Assembly: GCA_003566155.1 (NCBI GenBank)
Contig: PXEP01000024.1
Location: 1-59,317 of the forward strand
From: Candidatus Acetothermia bacterium
GTDB lineage: Bacteria; Bipolaricaulota; Bipolaricaulia; Bipolaricaulales; Bipolaricaulaceae
DNA: 59,317 nt
Direction: 5' to 3'
Each line of letters opens with the position of its first letter. The first letter of the stretch is position 1. The position numbers were made by a program, and so were the translations under genes. The notes under the pieces are model-generated. The model was not told the DNA's origin. It searched no databases and saw nothing but the letters and a program-made list of their open reading frames with translations. Below, in pieces: positions 1 to 59,317 of the stretch.

Positions 1-1062
1 ACGGTGGATGAGGTGGTGGATGAGCTGTGCGCGGAGGTGGGTGAGCCGCTTGATGCTATCGCACACGCGGTGGTTGTGGGAAACCCGGCCATGCTTCATC
101 TGTTTGCTGGGGTGGACCCGGGCTGTCTGGGACAGGCGCCGTTTTCGCCGGCGTGGCGGCGCTGGACCACGCTGTCGGCGGGTGAACTGGGCCTTTCCTT
201 AGTCCGGGCGGTGCCGGTGGAACTGGTGCCGATGGTTTCGGGTTATGTGGGCGCGGATGTGGTGGCAGGGCTCGTGGCGTGCGGGATTCATGAGGCAAGT
301 GAGGCCACGCTATACCTGGATCTGGGCACGAATGGCGAAATCGTGCTTGCCGTAGAGGATCGGTTGATCTCCTGTTCCGCCGCCGCCGGTCCTGCATTCG
401 AGGCTGTGGGGATTTCCTGCGGGATGTCTGCGTTGAATGGAGCAGTGTCCAGCGTGGAAATCAATGATCATGATGTCTGGTGTGGGACCATTGGGGACGC
501 GCCCGCGGCTGGGTTGTGTGGCACGGGACTTACCGATGCTGTGGCCGAACTTCTGCGGGTGGGTGTATTGGACACAAACGGGCGGATGCTTCTCCCGGAG
601 GGCTGTTTGCGCAAGCGGGTCAAGGGCGAAGGAAACGAACGCCGCTTCACGCTCACGGAGGGCGTGCGGGAGGTGTACCTCTCTCAGGCGGACGTCCGCA
701 AGCTGCAACTGGCCAAGGCCGCACTACGAAGTGGGGTGGACGTATTGCTCTCCCGGGGGGAACTGGGGCCGGGCGACGTAAGGCGGGTATATCTGGCGGG
801 GGCTTTCGGAGCGCATATGCGCACCGAAAGCTTGATCCGCATCGGTCTACTGCCGCCGGAGGTTAAGGACAAGGTTGTACAAGCTGGCAATGCCGCGGGC
901 CTGGGGGCCAAAGCTGCCCTCGCGGACAGAAGAACGGCCCGGCTGCTTCGCCGTGTGGCCCGGCGGATGGAGTTTGTGGAACTGGCCGCAGAGAGCGAGT
1001 TCGGCCGACGGTACGTGCAGACGATGTGGTTTCCCGACCAATCGAAGGAGGTGCAGGTGTGA
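1..1062 (+). CDS. RACo-like corrinoid-protein activator (ASKHA/DUF4445), 5' end outside window
   Basis: The reading frame is open to the first base, so the gene starts upstream. What is visible is the ASKHA (sugar kinase/actin-like) part: DLGTNGEIVL (about residue 105), CGTGLTDAV (about 172) and YLAGAFGAHM (about 263), the pattern of the C-terminal half of RACo proteins (DUF4445). In the known family an N-terminal 2Fe-2S domain, here missing with the edge, supplies electrons, and ATP drives reduction of inactive Co(II) corrinoid iron-sulfur protein to Co(I). The stop overlaps the hydrogenase small-subunit start (GTGA), and metV, metF and fhs follow, which supports a Wood-Ljungdahl methyl-transfer role. 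Methyltransferase-specific activators have the same architecture, so the exact corrinoid partner is inferred. Confidence 0.8.
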   Translation, partial: TVDEVVDELCAEVGEPLDAIAHAVVVGNPAMLHLFAGVDPGCLGQAPFSPAWRRWTTLSAGELGLSLVRAVPVELVPMVSGYVGADVVAGLVACGIHEASEATLYLDLGTNGEIVLAVEDRLISCSAAAGPAFEAVGISCGMSALNGAVSSVEINDHDVWCGTIGDAPAAGLCGTGLTDAVAELLRVGVLDTNGRMLLPEGCLRKRVKGEGNERRFTLTEGVREVYLSQADVRKLQLAKAALRSGVDVLLSRGELGPGDVRRVYLAGAFGAHMRTESLIRIGLLPPEVKDKVVQAGNAAGLGAKAALADRRTARLLRRVARRMEFVELAAESEFGRRYVQTMWFPDQSKEVQV

Positions 1063-1919
1063 GTGGATCTTCAGCGCAGCCGGTGTTGTGGCTTCAGGCG
1101 GCCGGGTGTACAGGATGCTCGATCTCGTTGATGAACGCCGAGTACCCTGACATCAAGAACCTCATCTTGGATGAGCTGGTGCCGGGAAAGGCGCTATCGC
1201 TAAAGTTTCACGCTACGCTGATGGGGCGTACGGGGAGGGCGGCATTGGAAGTACTGGACGCGGCCCCGGCCGAACACGAGGGCCGGTACGTGTTGGTCGT
1301 AGAAGGGGCGATCCCTACAGCCGGCAAAGGATATGGGATGATCGGCGACCAACCCATGGCTGAGAGGGCCGGTTCCCTGGCGCGCAATGCAACGGCGGTG
1401 CTGGCGCTCGGCTCTTGCGCCGCCTATGGTGGAGTCCCGGCAGGAGCGCCCAATCCGACGGGATGCAAAGGCGTCGCCGACTTCCTTGCGGGAGAGGGTG
1501 TGGAAGTCCCTGTGGTCAACGTTCCCGGTTGCCCTCCGCATCCACGGTGGTTCGTCGATTCGGTAGCGCATCTCTTGTTGGGCAAGGTGAACCGGCCGGG
1601 CATGGTGGATGATGTCGGTCGTGTGGCTCCTGTCTACCCAGGGCTGATACACGAAAATTGCCCGCGCCGGGCAGATTTTGATGTGGGGAGGTTTGCCCAG
1701 TCCTTTGGAGATGAAGGGTGCTTGTACGAACTGGGGTGTAAGGGCCCGTATGCGGACGCCTTATGCTGGGATCATCGCTGGAACGGGGGTGTCAACTGGT
1801 GTATCCAGGCCGGTCATCCGTGTGTTGCTTGTTGTGAACCGGAGTTCCTCGATCAGGTATCGCCCCTCTATCGCAAGCTGCTAGCCCAGTCGCCGGAGGA
1901 ATCGAGGAGGGAGATATGA
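1059..1919 (+). CDS. [NiFe] hydrogenase small subunit, cytosolic type
   Basis: Electron-transfer subunit of a [NiFe] hydrogenase, 286 residues. The N-terminus carries LWLQAAGCTGCSIS, followed by GSCAAYGG and VPGCPPHP, the four-cysteine set for the proximal cluster. Further cysteines (ENCPRR, CLYELGCKG, WCIQAGHPCVACC) fit medial and distal clusters. There is no twin-arginine signal and no C-terminal membrane anchor, so it should act in the cytoplasm. The N-terminal motif is closer to group 1/2 uptake-type subunits than to Mvh/Frh-type ones. GTG at 1059 was chosen because AAGGAGGT lies 7 bases upstream; the frame's upstream GTG at 1026 has no such site. The stop overlaps the large-subunit ATG by four bases, implying translational coupling. 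Confidence 0.9.
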   Translation: MSGSSAQPVLWLQAAGCTGCSISLMNAEYPDIKNLILDELVPGKALSLKFHATLMGRTGRAALEVLDAAPAEHEGRYVLVVEGAIPTAGKGYGMIGDQPMAERAGSLARNATAVLALGSCAAYGGVPAGAPNPTGCKGVADFLAGEGVEVPVVNVPGCPPHPRWFVDSVAHLLLGKVNRPGMVDDVGRVAPVYPGLIHENCPRRADFDVGRFAQSFGDEGCLYELGCKGPYADALCWDHRWNGGVNWCIQAGHPCVACCEPEFLDQVSPLYRKLLAQSPEESRREI

Positions 1920-3334
1920 CAAAGATTTCCATCGATCCCATTACCAGAATCGAGGGTCATCTGAAGGTGGACCTGGAGATAGAAGACGGCGTTATCCGCT
2001 CGGCGTGGTCCTCCGGAGCTTTGTACCGCGGACTGGAGAAGATACTTGCAGGACGGCACCCACTGGATGCACAGAAGATCACTCAGCGGATTTGTGGGGT
2101 GTGCCCGCTGGCCCATTCCACCGCCGCCTCGCTCTGCCTGGATGACGCGTTGGGGATCGCAGAGGACATTCCTCCCAACGGCAAACTGCTGCGGAACCTG
2201 ATCTATGGGGCAAACTTCCTGCACAACCATGTTCTGCATTTTTACCATCTTGCGCTCCCTGATTATGTCGACCCGGAGGTGTTGGCCGGCCACAGTACGG
2301 CCCCGTTGGGACAGCTCCTTTCCCCCGGCCCGACGGGAGAGGATCGACGATTCACCGAAAAGGAGAATCGCCACCTGGTGGAAAATTACGTGCAAGCCCT
2401 TACGGTGAGGCGGAAGGCACAGGAGCTGGTCGCCCTGTTGGGCGGCAAGATGCCCCACGACATGGCCGTGGTGCCCGGCGGGGTGACGTTCAGGCCAGGG
2501 CTCGGGGAGCTGGAAGGGTTCCGGTTCCGTCTCGAGGAGATCAAACAGTTCCTCGAACAGGAGTACATACCCGACGTGCATTTGTGGCTGGAACGCTATC
2601 GAGATCATCTGCAGCTAGGACGAACGGAGGATTGTCTGGCATTGGGGGTTTTCCCCCAGCGCAATGGACGCCTTCTTCCCCAGGGCGCAGTACTCCAAGG
2701 GGATTACGTCGATCCCTCGTGGGAAGACATAAGAGAAATGGTGGATGCATCCTGGTATACGGGCGAGGCTGTTAACCCGGACTGGGGCAAGGAAGATGCT
2801 TACTCCTGGGTCAAGTCGCCTCGACTGGGGGGACGGGCCTGTGAGGTAGGCCCGGCGGCACGGGTTCGGGTCGCCTTGCGGGCCGCCGACGGTGAACTGC
2901 GGGGCTCGTTGGAGGAAGGCCTCCGGGATGCGCGGATAGAGGACGAAGATCTGTGCTCTGTGGCCGGACGGCACCTGTCGCGAGCCCTTGAGTCCCGGGT
3001 GATTGCTGAAAAGCTGGGCGACTGGCTTTCGGAGGTGGACCCCGAAGGGCCGGTGGCATGCTCGGTTTCCATTCCTGAGGAGGCGGCCGGAGTCGGGTTG
3101 ACCGACGCGCCGCGGGGTGCGTTGGTGCACCGGATTGAAATCCAAAGAGGAAAGATAGCCCAGTATGATGTTATCTCACCCACTACGTGGAACGCTTCCC
3201 CCCGCGATGGGGCTGGGATCCCGGGACCGATCGAGGCGGCGCTGACAGGGACGAGTGTCGAAGGGAACGGGCATACAGAGGCGGGGCGGATCGTGCGGTC
3301 GTTCGACCCCTGTCTGGCATGCGCGGTTCAATGA
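1916..3334 (+). CDS. [NiFe] hydrogenase large (catalytic) subunit without C-terminal extension
   Basis: Catalytic NiFe(CN)2CO subunit, 472 residues. The N-terminal nickel motif is RICGVCPLAH (Cys60, Cys63) and the C-terminal motif is DPCLAC (Cys466, Cys469). The protein ends three residues after Cys469 in AVQ. In most hydrogenases the motif continues to His or Arg followed by a peptide that a maturation protease removes; here Gln sits at that position and nothing follows, so no proteolytic maturation seems needed. CooH, Ech-type and regulatory (HupV/HoxC) large subunits are also known to lack the extension. The stop is ten bases before metV, with AAGGAGG between, so hydrogenase and methylene-THF reductase subunits are very probably made together. 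Confidence 0.92.
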   Translation: MTKISIDPITRIEGHLKVDLEIEDGVIRSAWSSGALYRGLEKILAGRHPLDAQKITQRICGVCPLAHSTAASLCLDDALGIAEDIPPNGKLLRNLIYGANFLHNHVLHFYHLALPDYVDPEVLAGHSTAPLGQLLSPGPTGEDRRFTEKENRHLVENYVQALTVRRKAQELVALLGGKMPHDMAVVPGGVTFRPGLGELEGFRFRLEEIKQFLEQEYIPDVHLWLERYRDHLQLGRTEDCLALGVFPQRNGRLLPQGAVLQGDYVDPSWEDIREMVDASWYTGEAVNPDWGKEDAYSWVKSPRLGGRACEVGPAARVRVALRAADGELRGSLEEGLRDARIEDEDLCSVAGRHLSRALESRVIAEKLGDWLSEVDPEGPVACSVSIPEEAAGVGLTDAPRGALVHRIEIQRGKIAQYDVISPTTWNASPRDGAGIPGPIEAALTGTSVEGNGHTEAGRIVRSFDPCLACAVQ

Positions 3335-3344
3335 AGGAGGATGG

Positions 3345-4028
3345 ATGCTGACGTCGGAACTGAAGCCGGCCGAGGAGATATTGGAAAACCTGGCCCAGGG
3401 CGAGCGAGTGTTCTTGGTGGCGTGCGCCGGGTGCGCCGAGGTGTGCGACGCGGGAGGGGAAGAGGCCTTGCGTAGGTTGCGCAAGCTGTTGGAAGAAGGC
3501 GGTCGGACGGTGGTGGGAGGCACGTCGTTGCCCTTCCTGTGCAATCGGGCGCTGGTGTCGCTCCGACTGGGTAGGTGCGCCCAACAGCTGAAGGAGGCCG
3601 ACTCGATCCTGGTAACGTCCTGCGGTGTGGGCATACAGGCGGTGGCCGCGGTGAGCGCGCTCGTTGTTCACACGGCTTCCAACACCACCACTATGGGGGC
3701 CTTTCAAGGAGTGTGGCCATCCGACGAACGCTGCGCACGTTGTGGCGACTGTGTACTGGAGTACACCGGAGGAATCTGCCCGCTGACGGTGTGTCCCAAA
3801 GGACTGTTACACGGACCGTGCGGCGGGTCGCATGGCGGGGAGTGTGAGCTGGAGCCGGGACGTTCCTGCGGGTGGCAGGAGATACACGATCGCCTGGAGC
3901 AAACCGGGCAGCGAGAGATGCTACATCGCTATCAGCCGCCGAAAGACCGGCGCCGTCAGTTAGACGTACCTCTTGCGCGAAGACGGTCGGTGTTCTGGGC
4001 GCTGGAGTACGCAGAGGAGGACGAATGA
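3345..4028 (+). CDS. metV: MetV, iron-sulfur subunit of methylene-THF reductase
   Basis: Small Cys-rich partner of MetF (227 residues), known from acetogens as the protein that feeds electrons to MetF in place of NAD(P)H. Visible cysteines include Cys27-x2-Cys30-x3-Cys34 near the N-terminus, then SCGVG, CARCGDC, and a GGICPLTVCPKG/HGPCGG block typical of the MetV C-terminal domain. ATG 3345 follows AAGGAGG by four bases; the in-frame extension to 3255 lies inside the hydrogenase gene and lacks a ribosome site. It overlaps metF by ATGA. Placement between a hydrogenase and metF is unusual and suggests that H2 or the hydrogenase clusters supply its electrons; that is inference. Confidence 0.88.
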   Translation: MLTSELKPAEEILENLAQGERVFLVACAGCAEVCDAGGEEALRRLRKLLEEGGRTVVGGTSLPFLCNRALVSLRLGRCAQQLKEADSILVTSCGVGIQAVAAVSALVVHTASNTTTMGAFQGVWPSDERCARCGDCVLEYTGGICPLTVCPKGLLHGPCGGSHGGECELEPGRSCGWQEIHDRLEQTGQREMLHRYQPPKDRRRQLDVPLARRRSVFWALEYAEEDE

Positions 4029-4900
4029 AGCTCCGAGAACGGATAGAGCGAGGAGAGTTCATCGTCACCTGTGAGGCTGCCCCGCCCAAGGGGATCGCGG
4101 TGGAGAAGGCCCTGGAAGAGGCCCAATCGGTGGCTGACTACGTACACGCGTTCAACGTTACCGACTTGCAGTCGTCCGTAATGCGCATGAGTTCGTGGGC
4201 CTTCTGTGCTCTGCTCCGGGGCCGGGGGTTGGAACCCATCCTTCAACTCACGTGCCGGGATCGTAACCGCCTTGCGTTGCAGGCGGATCTGTTGGGAGCA
4301 TGGGGGCTGGGGATCGAGAACGTGCTTGCTCTGACGGGTGATCACACGACCCTGGGCGACCATCCGGAAGCTATGCCCGTGTTCGACCTGGATTCGGTAC
4401 AGCTGCTGGATGTGATCGGCAAGCTCAACTCGGGACATGACATGGTAGGCAATGAGCTGGATGGGGCGACGGATTTCTTCCCCGGCGCTGTGGTGAATCC
4501 AGCTGCGGACCCACTGGAGCCTCATATCCACAAGCTGCACCTGAAAGTCAGCTTGGGGGCAAAGTTTTTCCAAACACAGGCGGTGTACGACCCGGAAAGC
4601 TACAACGTGTTCGCCGAGAAGACTGCCGGAATAGGTGTCCCCATCCTGGCGGGGATCATACCCCTCAAATCGGCAAAGATGGCCCGGTTTATGAACGATA
4701 ACATCGCCGGCGTACACGTTCCGGAGGAGGTGATTGGAGAGCTGGAAGCTGCCACGAGCAAAGAGGACAGGGTCAAGCGCAGCATCGATCTCTGCGCGCG
4801 GACCATCCAGGCGGTACGCCCGCGGTGCCAGGGCGTGCACTTGATGCCTATGGGTTGGGAGCGACATGTCCCGGCCATCTTGGAGCGGGCCGGGCTATGA
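4025..4900 (+). CDS. metF: 5,10-methylenetetrahydrofolate reductase
   Basis: Reduces 5,10-methylene-THF to 5-methyl-THF, the last step of the methyl branch before transfer to the corrinoid protein. The 291-residue protein is a standard-length MTHFR TIM barrel: an early Glu in VTCEAAPPKG (the conserved catalytic region), LQLTCRDRNR, LALTGDH, AVVNPAADP, KFFQTQAVYD and ILAGIIPLKS are all recognisable. It starts inside the metV stop (ATGA), so a MetVF complex is expected. No NAD(P)H-binding module is added, in line with MetV being the electron donor. fhs follows after 40 bases with its own strong ribosome site. Confidence 0.93.
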   Translation: MKLRERIERGEFIVTCEAAPPKGIAVEKALEEAQSVADYVHAFNVTDLQSSVMRMSSWAFCALLRGRGLEPILQLTCRDRNRLALQADLLGAWGLGIENVLALTGDHTTLGDHPEAMPVFDLDSVQLLDVIGKLNSGHDMVGNELDGATDFFPGAVVNPAADPLEPHIHKLHLKVSLGAKFFQTQAVYDPESYNVFAEKTAGIGVPILAGIIPLKSAKMARFMNDNIAGVHVPEEVIGELEAATSKEDRVKRSIDLCARTIQAVRPRCQGVHLMPMGWERHVPAILERAGL

Positions 4901-4940
4901 CGGTCGTCTGAGGCACATGCAGCACTAAGGAGGGAAACAG

Positions 4941-6701
4941 ATGCCATATGATCCGACCACGCTGGCGGATTGGCAGATCGCAGCGGAAGCGGAAAAGAAG
5001 ATGCCCACGCCCGATGGCTGGCGCGAGCGGCTGGACCTAACCAAAGAGGAAGTCATCCCCTTTGGACGAATCGGCAGGTTGGATTTCCTGCGCGTTGCCG
5101 AGCGTCTGAAGGATCGCCCGGACGGAAAGTATATCGAGGTCACTGCAATCACGCCCACTCCGCTGGGGGAGGGAAAGACCACCACCAGCCTGGGGCTGAT
5201 TGAAGGGTTGGCCAAGCGTGGAGCAAACGTGGGCGGATGTCTCCGACAACCCTCGGCGGGTCCGACGTTCAACATCAAGGGGTCGGCCGCGGGAGGGGGA
5301 AACGCCCTGCTCATACCCATGACCGAGTTCTCGCTTGGTCTCACCGGCGATATCGACAACATCACCAACGCGCATAACCTGGGGATGGTGGCCCTCACCT
5401 CGAGGATGCAGCATGAGTTCAACTACACCGATGAGCAGCTTGCCAAGCGTAGTCTCAAGCGGCTGAATGTCGATCCCCGTCAGGTGGAGATGAAGTGGGC
5501 GATGGACTTCTGCGCGCAGGCAATGCGCAACATCGTAATCGGACTCGGGGGCAAGATGGACGGGTTCCTCATGGAGTCAGGGTTCCAGATCTCCGTATCT
5601 TCGGAACTTATGGCTATCTTGTCCATCGCCTATGACCTGGCTGATCTGCGGCGGAGGATCGGCGAGATGACCATCGCCTACGACAAACGAGGGAACCCGG
5701 TCACCTGCGACGATCTAGAGGTTGGGGGCGCGATGACCGCATGGATGAGAAGCACGATCAACCCCACGCTCTGTTGTACGATCGAGTACCAGCCGGTCAT
5801 GATCCATGCGGGGCCGTTTGCCAACATTGCCGTGGGTCAGTCGTCCATCATCGGGGACCGTTTGGGACTGAAGATGTTCGACTACCACGTGACCGAAAGC
5901 GGTTTCGGCGCCGATATCGGGTTTGAGAAGTTCTGGAACGTGAAGTCCCGCCTGAGCGGACTGAAACCCCACGTATCCGTGTTGGTGGCTACGATCCGGG
6001 CGCTGAAGATGCACGGCGGTGGGCCGCGCGTCGTGCCTGGGCGGCCACTTCCCAAAGAGTACACGGAGGAGAATCTCGAGCTTCTGGAAAACGGGATCGG
6101 GAACCTGTTGCACCACATTCACATGGTACGCAAGTCGGGGATCAACCCGGTTGTGTGCGTGAACGTGTTCCCGACAGATACACCGGACGAGATTGCCACA
6201 GTGCGACGCTATGCGGAACAGGCGGGCGCGCGTTGCGCTGTCTCCGAGCACTGGGCCAAGGGCGGAGAAGGAGCGCTCGAACTGGCCGATGCGGTGATCG
6301 AGGCCAGTGAACAACCGACGGACTTCGACTTCTTGTACTACCTGGATCTGCCCCTCCGCCAACGGGTGGAGCGCATCGCCCAAGAGGTCTACGGCGCGGA
6401 CGGAGTAGAGTGGTCCGCCGAGGCGGCGGAGAAGGCCGACCGGTTCGAGGCAGACTCCAAGTTCACGGACTACCAGACGATGATGGTCAAGACGCACCTG
6501 TCGCTTTCACACGATCCGGCGCTTAAGGGTGTACCCAAGGGTTGGACGCTTCCCATCAGGGACATCCTGCTGTTCTCCGGAGCCAAGTTCCTGTGCCCGA
6601 TGGCCGGCAGCATCAAGCTGATGCCTGGGACCAGCTCCGATCCTGCGTACCGGCGGATCGATGTGGACACGGAGACCGGAGAGGTGCAAGGGCTGTTCTA
6701 G
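4941..6701 (+). CDS. fhs: Formate-tetrahydrofolate ligase
   Basis: ATP-dependent activation of formate to 10-formyl-THF, the entry step of the Wood-Ljungdahl methyl branch (and a C1 supply for purines). The 586-residue protein has the family P-loop region [13 protein letters not shown] near residue 75 and long diagnostic stretches ([42 protein letters not shown]). It is slightly longer than the usual 555-560 residues. ATG 4941 has AAGGAGGG six bases upstream. Its place at the end of the corrinoid activator/hydrogenase/metVF operon argues for a role in acetogenesis or formate assimilation rather than only biosynthesis. The gene for the dehydrogenase/cyclohydrolase step (FolD) is not in the window. 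Confidence 0.96.
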
Positions 6702-9875: not shown

Positions 9876-10007
9876 TACAGCGCGCACCGAGAAGTGTTTT
9901 CCACCCGCAGTTTAGCTTCTGTACCAAGGGTACGCCAGCCGAGGACGCACGCTGCGAACTGGTAACGAGAGAACATCGGTGCTAGGTTGGTGCAGGAGGT
10001 GGTGGAG

Positions 10008-10973
10008 ATGCGGGCGGCGGGAGGGGCCCTGATCGCGGTGTTGACTGTTGTCGTGGCGGGCGTGGCGGCCGAGGAGCTTCAGGAGCTAGTTTCATTCCAA
10101 CTGACCAGCACGGCCTTGGCCTTCTCGCCGGACGGTTCCCTATTGGCAGTGGCCGCGGGGGACGAAATCCAGTTGTGGGAGACCGACGACTGGACGGTGC
10201 TCAGAACTCTGCAGGGACATGAGGGGACAGTAACGGGAGTTGCGTTCGACGGCGGGGGAGTGCGACTGGCTTCTTCGTCGTGGGACGAGACCGTGTGGAT
10301 CTGGGATGTGGAGAGTGGGCAACAAGCGCAGACCATCGGCGGGTATAACAGTTGGGTTCGTGCGGTGGATCTTAGTCCCGATGGGGCGTTGGTGGCGTCG
10401 GGGGCGTTGGAGCACAGGCTGGGCTGGGGACTTTTGCTTCTTTCCGATGTGCGCACCGGCCGGGCGAGAATGACCAAATTGGAGCACGAAGACTGGGTGC
10501 GTGCGGTGGCATTTAGTCCAGATGGCAAGCTACTTGCCTCTGGGTCGGACGACAGGACGGTTCGGGTATGGGATGTCAGCACGCGGAGTGGGCTTGTCGC
10601 TCTTAGCGGCCTGAGGGGGCGCGTGCACGCCGTTGCCTTTTCCGGAGACGGCAAGCGCCTGCTTGCCGGCACCTGGGGGGGAGTCACGGTATGGAACTGC
10701 GATGACTGGTCCCAGGTGGGGGCCGTCTCCACGCACAGACGCAACGTCCGATCGTTGGCAGCATCACCCGGTTCGGAGCTGGTTGCGTCGGGGGATGACG
10801 ACGGCACTTTGGTTGTCTGGAGTAGCGTGACCCTTGACGTGCAATGGACCACGGGGGCGCACGAAGGGGCTGTGCGTGCATTAGCCTTCCATCCCCATGA
10901 GGAGTTGCTTGTGTCCTGCGGCGAAGACGGGCTAATGAAGATCTGGATTCTGCCCGGGCAGGCGGGGGGTTGA
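10008..10973 (+). CDS. Secreted WD40-repeat beta-propeller protein
   Basis: A 321-residue protein with an N-terminal signal-peptide-like stretch (MRAAGGALIAVLTVVVAGVAA) and about seven WD40 repeats, each recognisable by blocks such as FSPDGKLLASGSDDRTVRVW and ending in WD or similar. It is expected to form one seven-bladed propeller outside the cytoplasmic membrane and act as a protein-binding platform; no catalytic motif is seen. ATG 10008 has AGGAGGT seven bases upstream and puts the signal peptide at the start; the GTG at 9987 would add seven residues before it. It diverges from the tRNA-Pro transcript with 132 bases between them. Confidence 0.85.
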   Translation: MRAAGGALIAVLTVVVAGVAAEELQELVSFQLTSTALAFSPDGSLLAVAAGDEIQLWETDDWTVLRTLQGHEGTVTGVAFDGGGVRLASSSWDETVWIWDVESGQQAQTIGGYNSWVRAVDLSPDGALVASGALEHRLGWGLLLLSDVRTGRARMTKLEHEDWVRAVAFSPDGKLLASGSDDRTVRVWDVSTRSGLVALSGLRGRVHAVAFSGDGKRLLAGTWGGVTVWNCDDWSQVGAVSTHRRNVRSLAASPGSELVASGDDDGTLVVWSSVTLDVQWTTGAHEGAVRALAFHPHEELLVSCGEDGLMKIWILPGQAGG

Positions 10974-57170: not shown

Positions 57171-59317
57171 TCAGCCTTCCTCTCTGCCGTCAGATACGTG
57201 GGGCGTTGATTCCATCAGCCCCTCGAACAACACGGCCAGCTCGACCGCCCGATGTAGCGTCCGCCGCCCGGCAAATGGTTCCAAAAGTCGGACACGCACC
57301 GGAGTCAGGTCATGCCGCAATTCGGCGGACAGCGCCGGATCGGTGTACAGCCAACGATCCTCCCGTCGCTCGAGCTGACATTCCTCCCCTCCCGATCGAA
57401 GCCGGAGCACCGTGCCGGACATGTGAACGGCATTGTCGTCCTGCATTCGGAATTGCACCTTGTCGTAGAATAACCGTGGCTTGTCCATGTACGGACGCCC
57501 TTGGTGTACACAGAAAGTGGCGCAGGTTCCGCATTCATTGCATAGCTCATGCAGGTGCAGGATTTGTCTTCTCTGGGAGATACGCACCGTCTCCGTGTCC
57601 ACTTCTCGGAGCACGTCTCCTTCGCAGCTGAACACTGGAAGCTCTGAGGTGCGCGGCGTAATGAAGTACACGATGTTCGCGCGGTTGGGACACACTTCGA
57701 CGCACTTATCACACAGATAAGAGCACTGGAGACAGCGGTCGGCTTCGCTCCGGGCTTGGTCGATGGGAAGGGTCTGTTCCACGCAGGCAAACGCCCGGCG
57801 CTGCGCAGGTGGTAGGTGCTGCGGACTCTGGGGGGGTTGTCGCCTGGTACGGGAAACCTTGATCGCGGTGACCTCCTCCTGCGTCAACACGGGGAACTGC
57901 GCCGGAGGGGGGGTAAAGGGAACACCCCAGGTTCGGCACATCGATTCGGCGCCCCGTCGCCCGTCGCTGCAAGCCTCCACAATGGTTGCCGGACCACGGG
58001 CCAAGTCCCCTCCTGCGTACACGCTGCAGCCGACCCTGCCCGATTCTGGTTTCACCGATAACCTTTCGTCCGAGGTGAGGGTAACGTCCTGCCCGCTAGG
58101 GAACTGCACAGCCGGTCGTTGCCCCACGGCGAAGATCACCGAATCGGCTGGCAGGGTATGCTCACTTCCCGGCAAGGGACGCGGAGATGCCCGCCCGTCC
58201 GGACCCGGCTCGCCCAGCTCATTGTGCACACATTCCAAACCCACAACCCGCCCGTCCCGGGTCGCTACCCGTATCGGAGAGCGTAACGTAAGCAGCTGGT
58301 TTCCCTCGGCCAGCAGAGCCTCTACTTCCTCCTGGTCGGCGGGCATCTCGGCTTCTGTACGGCGGTACACCACCGTCACCGGGCGGCCGATGAGTCGCTG
58401 AGCGGTCCGTGCCGCGTCCATAGCGGTGTTCCCCCCTCCTACGACACACACGTGTGTTCCCAGCTGGGGGTGTTCCCCTTGGGCCACCCGCTCCAGGAGG
58501 TCCAATGCTCCCCAAGACCCGGTCGAGTCCTCTCCCTCGATTTCGGGGAACGCGTCCCGCTGCAGACCGCACGCCAAGAACACTGCATCGTAGCCTTGGG
58601 CCAGAAGCTCCTGGGGGGGAGCGGAGAACTCCTCTCCCAACCGAAACTCCACCCCCAGGTTCTCAATGCGCGCCACATCGCTATCCACCACCTCGCGGGG
58701 CAAGCGGAACTCAGGGGCCACTGCCGGCCAACCCCCCGCCGTGAGCCGTCGTTCGAACAGTGTCACGTGCACCCCGCTCAAGGCGAGGAAATAAGCTGCG
58801 GCCAGTCCGGCCGGCCCTGCGCCGATGATGGCTGCACGCCGGCCAGTTGGTGGTGCGGGGGAGGGGATGTGGGAGGAGCCGTGTTCGACCGCGAAGCGCT
58901 TTAGCGCCCGGATGAGCACGGGTTCATCGTAGCCGATCCGGGTACACCGTGTTTCACACAGTCGATTACAGATATAGCCGGTGATCCCGGGAAGGGGATT
59001 CCGGTGCAGGATGACCTGGAGCGCTTTGTCGTCGTTCCCGCGAGCGATCCACCAGGCGTATTCGGGGACGTCCTGGAAGATGGCGCATCGCTCCACGCAG
59101 GGAGCTGCTATGCAGTCGAAGGCTTCCAATGGCGACGCAACCTTCGGAAGCTCCCCGCCGTAGTAATGGCGGCGGTATCTTCTATCCTGTCGCGCGTGCG
59201 TGGCTTCCCGGGCTAGGTGCGTTCTGCTCTGAGAAGCAAGCTCGGACAACGTGTTCGCCCCGCGCTCGGTCATGTCCTGGGCCAGGTTATCCACCCACTG
59301 CCGGAGCCGCCCGTATC
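57171..59317 (-). CDS. ygfK: YgfK-like FAD/iron-sulfur oxidoreductase, 5' end outside window
   Basis: The frame is open to the window end, so the N-terminus is missing. What remains (over 710 residues) has the GltD-type plan: a cysteine cluster (CVERCAIFQDVPEYAW, YICNRLCETRC), an FAD loop GAGPAGLAAAYFLALSG, an NAD(P)H loop VVGGGNTAMDAARTAQRL, AGGDLARGPATIVEA, then two 4Fe-4S sets (CLQCSYLCDKCVEVCPNRAN and LCNECGTCATFC). This matches YgfK, once called a selenate reductase subunit and now tied by genetics to anaerobic urate/purine breakdown. It heads the hydroxylase-subunit operon, with a 165-base gap to the next gene. Confidence 0.88.
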   Translation of the reverse strand, partial: YGRLRQWVDNLAQDMTERGANTLSELASQSRTHLAREATHARQDRRYRRHYYGGELPKVASPLEAFDCIAAPCVERCAIFQDVPEYAWWIARGNDDKALQVILHRNPLPGITGYICNRLCETRCTRIGYDEPVLIRALKRFAVEHGSSHIPSPAPPTGRRAAIIGAGPAGLAAAYFLALSGVHVTLFERRLTAGGWPAVAPEFRLPREVVDSDVARIENLGVEFRLGEEFSAPPQELLAQGYDAVFLACGLQRDAFPEIEGEDSTGSWGALDLLERVAQGEHPQLGTHVCVVGGGNTAMDAARTAQRLIGRPVTVVYRRTEAEMPADQEEVEALLAEGNQLLTLRSPIRVATRDGRVVGLECVHNELGEPGPDGRASPRPLPGSEHTLPADSVIFAVGQRPAVQFPSGQDVTLTSDERLSVKPESGRVGCSVYAGGDLARGPATIVEACSDGRRGAESMCRTWGVPFTPPPAQFPVLTQEEVTAIKVSRTRRQPPQSPQHLPPAQRRAFACVEQTLPIDQARSEADRCLQCSYLCDKCVEVCPNRANIVYFITPRTSELPVFSCEGDVLREVDTETVRISQRRQILHLHELCNECGTCATFCVHQGRPYMDKPRLFYDKVQFRMQDDNAVHMSGTVLRLRSGGEECQLERREDRWLYTDPALSAELRHDLTPVRVRLLEPFAGRRTLHRAVELAVLFEGLMESTPHVSDGREEG

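Follow-up and report, generated by a model that had tools for sequence, protein, structure and literature searches.

Where MetVF-type methylene-tetrahydrofolate (methylene-THF) reductases (MTHFRs) obtain their electrons has long been a question in the energetics of acetogens. The published MTHFR types comprise MetF alone, MetVF, and enzymes associated with RnfC2, Hdr or NuoEFG, with no hydrogenase type listed (PMC8515935, PMC9430772), and none of the five groups of the 2021 scheme includes a hydrogenase (PMC8515935). In membranes of Sporomusa ovata, methylene-THF is reduced with H2 via a periplasmic hydrogenase and an Hdr-linked MetVF (PMC9430772); this was the only work on such H2-dependent reduction found in the open-licence PubMed Central (PMC) literature. 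The nearest precedent comes from Bipolaricaulia of Great Salt Lake, for which one sentence of a 2024 paper notes that a group 1a hydrogenase, HysAB, adjoins MetVF in two operational taxonomic units and may supply it with electrons; related Bipolaricaulia hydrogenase copies belong to group 1a according to HydDB (PMC11287216). Here we analyzed a contig of 59,317 nucleotides (C108, accession no. PXEP01000024.1; hereafter the window) from a 1.93-Mb metagenome-assembled genome (MAG; completeness 83%) of Candidatus Acetothermia bacterium (Bipolaricaulota), in which hydS and hydL, encoding the small and large subunits of a [NiFe] hydrogenase, lie directly upstream of metV and metF. The order hydS-hydL-(protease gene)-metV-metF is a conserved module, and the view that its products probably form a soluble enzyme reducing methylene-THF with H2 is well supported by comparative genomics.

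The Great Salt Lake report shares with this analysis the gene neighbourhood, the phylum (loci L077, L079, L107 and L109) and the suggested electron supply. The preliminary description, which knew of no described complex with a [NiFe] hydrogenase directly before metV, does not fully hold on this point, as the adjacency had already been interpreted in 2024 (PMC11287216). That report does not contain a survey of other phyla, the loss of the export signal, the separate MetV clade, the loss of the HydL tail and protease, or the controls presented below; no description of the module's breadth, the signal loss, the MetV clade or the tail and protease loss was found in the open-licence PMC literature.

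The PDB entries nearest to HydS and HydL are group 1 [NiFeSe] hydrogenases, and sequence comparison showed that the active-site motifs of HydL and the cluster ligands of HydS are intact. The likely, conserved ligands are C17, C20, C120 and C158 for the proximal cluster, C236, C248, C255 and C258 for the medial cluster, and H198, C201, C221 and C227 for the distal cluster. The medial-cluster loop, NWCIQAGHPCVAC, contains the additional, fourth Cys common to [NiFeSe] sequences. The window HydSL is thus akin to group 1a [NiFe]/[NiFeSe] enzymes in its Ni-Fe and cluster ligands, and it resembles the periplasmic HysAB/HydAB in subunit sequences, cluster ligands and active-site motifs. However, the latter have twin-arginine translocation (Tat) signals and, mostly, a protease-cleaved C-terminal tail, whereas the window HydSL has neither. 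Since HydS starts only eight residues ahead of its first conserved motif (V-L-W-L-Q), it has no Tat signal, and reading of the N-terminus together with a comparison of relatives gave no indication of a periplasmic location.

The C-terminus of HydL (positions 3305–3334) reads ...DPCLACAVQ-stop, with no cleavable tail and with Gln in place of the usual final His, and the module contains no maturation protease gene. Among 80 relatives, a tail of 15–16 residues is present in 59 and missing in 17. Bipolaricaulota family f2 retains the tail and carries a HyaD/HycI-like protease gene between hydL and metV, while neither is left in families f1 and f5, where HydL ends mostly in Gln (f1) or in His (f5). 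In other phyla a 15-residue tail is mostly retained, often with a protease gene close by. Loss of the tail is recurrent, and was also seen in L080 and L113. As both tail and protease gene are retained in f2, the module in the window represents a simplified version.

Conservation of the gene order was examined in two sets of genomes. A sample of 100 genomes of relatives contained clear HydS homologues in about 21, including that of the window itself. To the extent covered by the contigs, the order hydS-hydL-metV-metF is present in 18 of 20 Bipolaricaulota loci examined; the two exceptions belong to family f4 and have metV and metF nearby in a rearranged form. In these f4 loci (L053 and L056) a divergent metV, placed on the unlinked side of the MetV tree, adjoins the hydrogenase genes, and L056 has an additional linked-type MetV at a greater distance; a partner switch is possible. 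A search of 84,980 GTDB species genomes with a HydS alignment yielded 80 best loci; in every one of them hydS and hydL share a strand. With or without an intervening protease gene, metV lies downstream of hydL in 75 of the 75 informative loci, a count conditional on the MetV-linked HydS clade because the loci were ranked by likeness to it; the remaining five stop 0–13 bases past the hydL match. Record titles assign the loci to more than 10 phyla, including Chloroflexota, Planctomycetota, Omnitrophota, Elusimicrobiota, Aerophobota, Nitrospirota and Thermodesulfobacteriota, although names taken from MAG titles are not always correct (L060 and L062 bear other titles, but their sequences place them in Bipolaricaulota). 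The preliminary description had named a non-conserved order as grounds for its rejection, and the order held in both sets. No recurrent gene for a cytochrome, ferredoxin, diaphorase or membrane anchor was found near the module in the 80 loci. No natural HydS-MetV or HydL-MetV fusion, which would have come close to direct proof, was seen among the loci collected.

The MetV encoded by the window is a PF12225 protein with Cys residues for two [4Fe4S] clusters, ATGA-coupled to a PF02219 MetF, as in MetVF-type enzymes. In the MetV tree, a branch with 99/97 support separates all 76 hydrogenase-linked MetVs from 28 of the 29 other MetVs of the same genomes (the one stray has a very long branch). The neighbours of unlinked MetVs are mostly MvhD and HdrA. 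Residue W124 is invariant in linked MetVs and is mostly replaced by Gly in the others. The separation of this clade from Hdr-linked MetVs of the same genomes argues for a specific docking partner, and the combination of a Tat-less HydSL with a linked-clade MetV places the window in a proposed hydrogenase-linked MetVF family. The HydS and MetV trees have 20 of 56 splits in common, compared with 0.2 expected by chance (distance r = 0.76). Chance adjacency of hydSL and metVF was ruled out by the MetV clade, the agreement of the two trees and the 75/75 order. Since both trees group the f2 copies with other phyla and not with f1, the module may have been passed from lineage to lineage as a whole. 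In the HydS tree, one long-branched Tat group is placed within the MetV-linked set with unstarred support, so the set may, but need not, have a single origin.

An AlphaFold2 model of MetV (mean pLDDT 84.8) contains a confident alpha/beta domain (residues 1–116) followed by a cysteine-rich, less regular C-terminal part. Single and profile searches of PDB sequences with MetV gave no credible match, and a fold search with the model returned nothing below E 0.001. Both a linked and another, often MvhD/HdrA-linked, MetV may occur in one genome, sometimes on one DNA stretch (L136, L089, L113, L124, L125, L132, L135); two routes of electron input to this reaction may thus operate side by side in a single cell.

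The existence of a dedicated MetV clade bears on whether HydSL and MetVF could be separate enzymes of one regulon, with HydSL reducing a soluble ferredoxin or flavodoxin used by MetVF. Without coupling, H2 can reduce ferredoxin only to a limited extent. In vitro, reduced ferredoxin does serve as an electron source for the MetVF of C. ljungdahlii and S. ovata (PMC8515935, PMC9430772), but metV is a constant neighbour of the hydrogenase genes, compared with fhs (20/80 loci) and the gene for the corrinoid activator RACo (4/80), and the linked MetVs are distinct from the Hdr-linked ones in the same genomes. This explanation is considered unlikely.

Because the retrieved set had been ranked by query likeness, group 1 HydS outside it were also examined. 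A Tat signal was found in none of 86 MetV-linked HydS (by regular expression; two matches were judged false on reading), which, together with the window HydS, bears out the earlier claim of a cytosolic hydrogenase. In contrast, 27 related group 1 HydS without metV, from Desulfobacterota and Dehalococcoidia, all bear the signal. They include 19 of 19 group 1 HydS from the Desulfobacterota class to which L128, a Desulfobacteraceae record, belongs, none with an adjoining MetV, and 8 of 8 Tat-type HydS from a sample of 100 genomes of the class Dehalococcoidia, none followed by MetV; five genomes with a Tat-type HydS contain no MetV at all (G217, G252, G271, G286 and G301). Within the same Dehalococcoidia sample, a close Tat-less HydS is followed by MetV in G297, G236 and G300, in addition to the already known G107, G115 and G275. 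Two distant hydrogenases (L265 and L266) have neither a Tat motif nor a MetV. Among the sampled relatives of the window genome, HydS without MetV was found in 0 of 21 cases; in family f1, HydS is accompanied by MetV in 13 of 13 cases, and MetV occurs without HydS in two genomes, one with an assembly gap immediately before metV and the other with a MetV whose score resembles the unlinked type. The Fisher p-values calculated for these controls ignore shared descent.

Several candidate counter-examples were rejected on inspection. In G274 a Tat-type hydrogenase is followed by a cytochrome-b-like gene; the locus of G245 (linked-type MetV, no HydS) is ended by a contig edge, and a run of N (an assembly gap) lies immediately 5′ of the linked-type metV of G002. 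The contig of G265, another case of a linked-type MetV lacking HydS, begins inside hydL and then carries the end of hydL, the protease gene and metV in order, and the MetV of G017 scores like the unlinked type.

The most likely explanation of these features is that the four genes specify an H2:methylene-THF oxidoreductase that is soluble and located in the cytoplasm. It would have arisen when a hydrogenase of the group 1a type gave up Tat export and its membrane partner and docked anew onto a dedicated MetV. H2 would be split at the HydL Ni-Fe site; the electrons would then run along the HydS clusters (proximal, medial, distal), enter those of MetV and reach the MetF flavin, where methylene-THF would be reduced to methyl-THF for use in the Wood-Ljungdahl pathway. 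NADH, ferredoxin, Hdr and a membrane module would all be dispensable. Reduction of methylene-THF with H2 is downhill by 41 kJ/mol (acceptor E0′ −200 mV) (PMC9430772), so no energy coupling would be needed, although this energy would be lost to the cells. The same 41 kJ/mol would in principle suffice for flavin-based bifurcation of H2 electrons to methylene-THF and ferredoxin without an Hdr or diaphorase subunit, which would remove the problem of waste. However, the module has no second flavin subunit, HdrA or diaphorase, and the MetVF of C. ljungdahlii showed no bifurcation (PMC8515935), which makes this alternative very improbable.

The direction of the reaction could also be the reverse in vivo, the same complex oxidizing methyl-THF and releasing H2 in a syntrophic or reverse Wood-Ljungdahl metabolism; this differs from H2 uptake in direction only and otherwise overlaps with it. 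[NiFeSe] hydrogenases, the nearest solved relatives of HydSL, are good H2 producers, and the medial loop has their fourth Cys. On the other hand, a potential difference of about 0.2 V makes H2 uptake the favoured direction, barring very low H2, while the Fhs and acetyl-CoA synthase (ACS) genes are compatible with either direction. Reversal therefore seems unlikely.

The genome contains an ACS operon with AcsV, AcsC, AcsB and FolD, and a single PF12225 gene was found in it; for these reasons the window MetVF appears to be the sole enzyme of its kind, serving the pathway. Further hydrogenases are encoded on contig C13, in a NuoF/NuoG-like-linked cluster, and on contig C16, in a cluster of the MvhD type that also has Hdr-like genes. 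On C16 (L170), the MvhD-hydrogenase genes are followed by HdrC/HdrB-like genes and genes for a 2Fe-2S/4Fe-4S protein and an FAD_binding_2 protein, a set resembling a fumarate-reductase-like complex, and then by 2-oxoacid oxidoreductase-like genes.

The window locus differs from the described MetVF systems in several respects. The Moorella-type HdrABC-MvhD-MetVF (6S) likewise combines a MetVF core and an electron-input module in one operon, but its input is Hdr/MvhD and not a hydrogenase, and MvhD/HdrA-adjoining MetVs fall outside the linked clade; no HdrABC/MvhD adjoins the window metVF, MvhD being encoded on C16. The RnfC2-MetVF of Acetobacterium woodii (3S) and the MetVF of C. ljungdahlii (2S) share the MetV and MetF subunits but receive electrons from RnfC2/NADH or ferredoxin and have no hydrogenase subunits; the window operon contains no RnfC-like gene, and the genome has just the one PF12225 protein. 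As to the X-type (NuoEFG), it is hydL that directly precedes metV, the NuoF-like genes being on C13. The S. ovata system has the same donor and acceptor and also joins a hydrogenase to MetVF, but its hydrogenase is Tat-exported and membrane-bound via cytochrome b, its MetVF is linked by MvhD-HdrCBA, and energy is conserved. The hydrogen-dependent CO2 reductase, in which an [FeFe] hydrogenase is joined directly to formate dehydrogenase in Wood-Ljungdahl carbon reduction, is alike in its working only; it has no subunits in common with HydSL-MetVF and so is not a member of the family.

Several points weigh against a four-subunit enzyme. A shared gene order and joint inheritance fall short of proof that a complex forms, and since purified MetVF from other species accepts ferredoxin (PMC8515935), HydSL could work via a soluble carrier. 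In five loci (L073, L090, L096, L101 and L103) metF does not immediately follow metV. Besides being conditional on one clade, the 75/75 count is drawn from related, non-independent genomes, mostly incomplete MAGs. Moreover, about 41 kJ/mol would go to waste if the reduction were uncoupled, in cells that are limited by energy.

As shown in Table 1, six same-strand genes, all unambiguous in their family assignment, occupy the first 6.7 kb of the window. Open reading frame calls, translations and reading of the sequence reproduced exactly the genes and junctions reported earlier: GTGA overlap (RACo/hydS), ATGA overlap (hydS/hydL), 10-base gap (hydL-metV), ATGA overlap (metV/metF) and 40-base gap (metF-fhs). 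The overlap with the RACo-like gene, which also lies upstream in a sister genome (L037/L059), could mean that HydSL serves RACo, or a CO dehydrogenase, with MetVF a mere pathway neighbour. However, RACo is close to hydS in just four of the 80 GTDB loci, its adjacency being confined to the genus of the window and a few other loci, while MetV is constant; a second, full-length RACo-like copy lies in the ACS operon (contig C110). RACo was accordingly rejected as the hydrogenase partner, is outside the conserved unit, and the explanation, largely refuted by the neighbourhood survey, is extremely unlikely. The gene fhs, beside the module in 20 of the 80 loci, is a frequent but not constant neighbour. 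Thus, a cytosolic HydSL feeding MetVF, as proposed in the preliminary description, gained from the order conserved across phyla, the Tat loss, the MetV clade and the co-occurrence data, whereas the corrinoid activator as part of the operon unit, like the novelty of the adjacency, was not upheld.

Table 1. Features identified in the window.
Feature	Position	Strand	Characteristics
RACo-like corrinoid activator, AcsV type	1..1062	+	Pfam RACo_C_ter and Raco_middle; PDB match 3zyy/4c1n; 5′ end truncated by contig edge
hydS, [NiFe] hydrogenase small subunit, group 1a/[NiFeSe]-like	1059..1919	+	Oxidored_q6 and NiFe_hyd_SSU_C; best PDB matches are [NiFeSe] small subunits
hydL, [NiFe] hydrogenase large subunit	1916..3334	+	NiFeSe_Hases; RICGVC and DPCLAC motifs intact
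metV, iron-sulfur subunit of MetVF-type methylene-THF reductase	3345..4028	+	PF12225; 12 conserved Cys; hydrogenase-linked MetV clade
metF, flavin subunit of methylene-THF reductase	4025..4900	+	PF02219; PDB matches to MTHFR
fhs, formate-THF ligase	4941..6701	+	FTHFS; PRK13507 above cut-off
WD40-repeat protein	9987-10973		328 residues; in a bacterial candidate phylum
GltD/NfnB-like NAD(P)H oxidoreductase	57171-59315		Fer4_20 and Pyr_redox_2; right contig end, truncated by edge

A hydrogenase-fed MetVF class, hinted at once before (in 2024), now appears from genome comparisons to be broad and cytosolic. If true, direct feeding of MetVF with H2 across many uncultured phyla would mean a further class of MTHFRs, and the Tat-less group 1 hydrogenases of Dehalococcoidia would gain a cytosolic partner; in 2013 the electron partner of a Chloroflexi group I hydrogenase was called unclear (PMC3971608). 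The module may illustrate the recruitment of an exported respiratory-type hydrogenase to the cytoplasm, and the repeated loss of the HydL tail may represent a natural experiment on [NiFe] maturation. The results suggest that hydrogen directly powers one step of CO2 fixation in many uncultured anaerobic bacteria, which, if true, would matter to models of carbon fixation driven by H2 in the subsurface.

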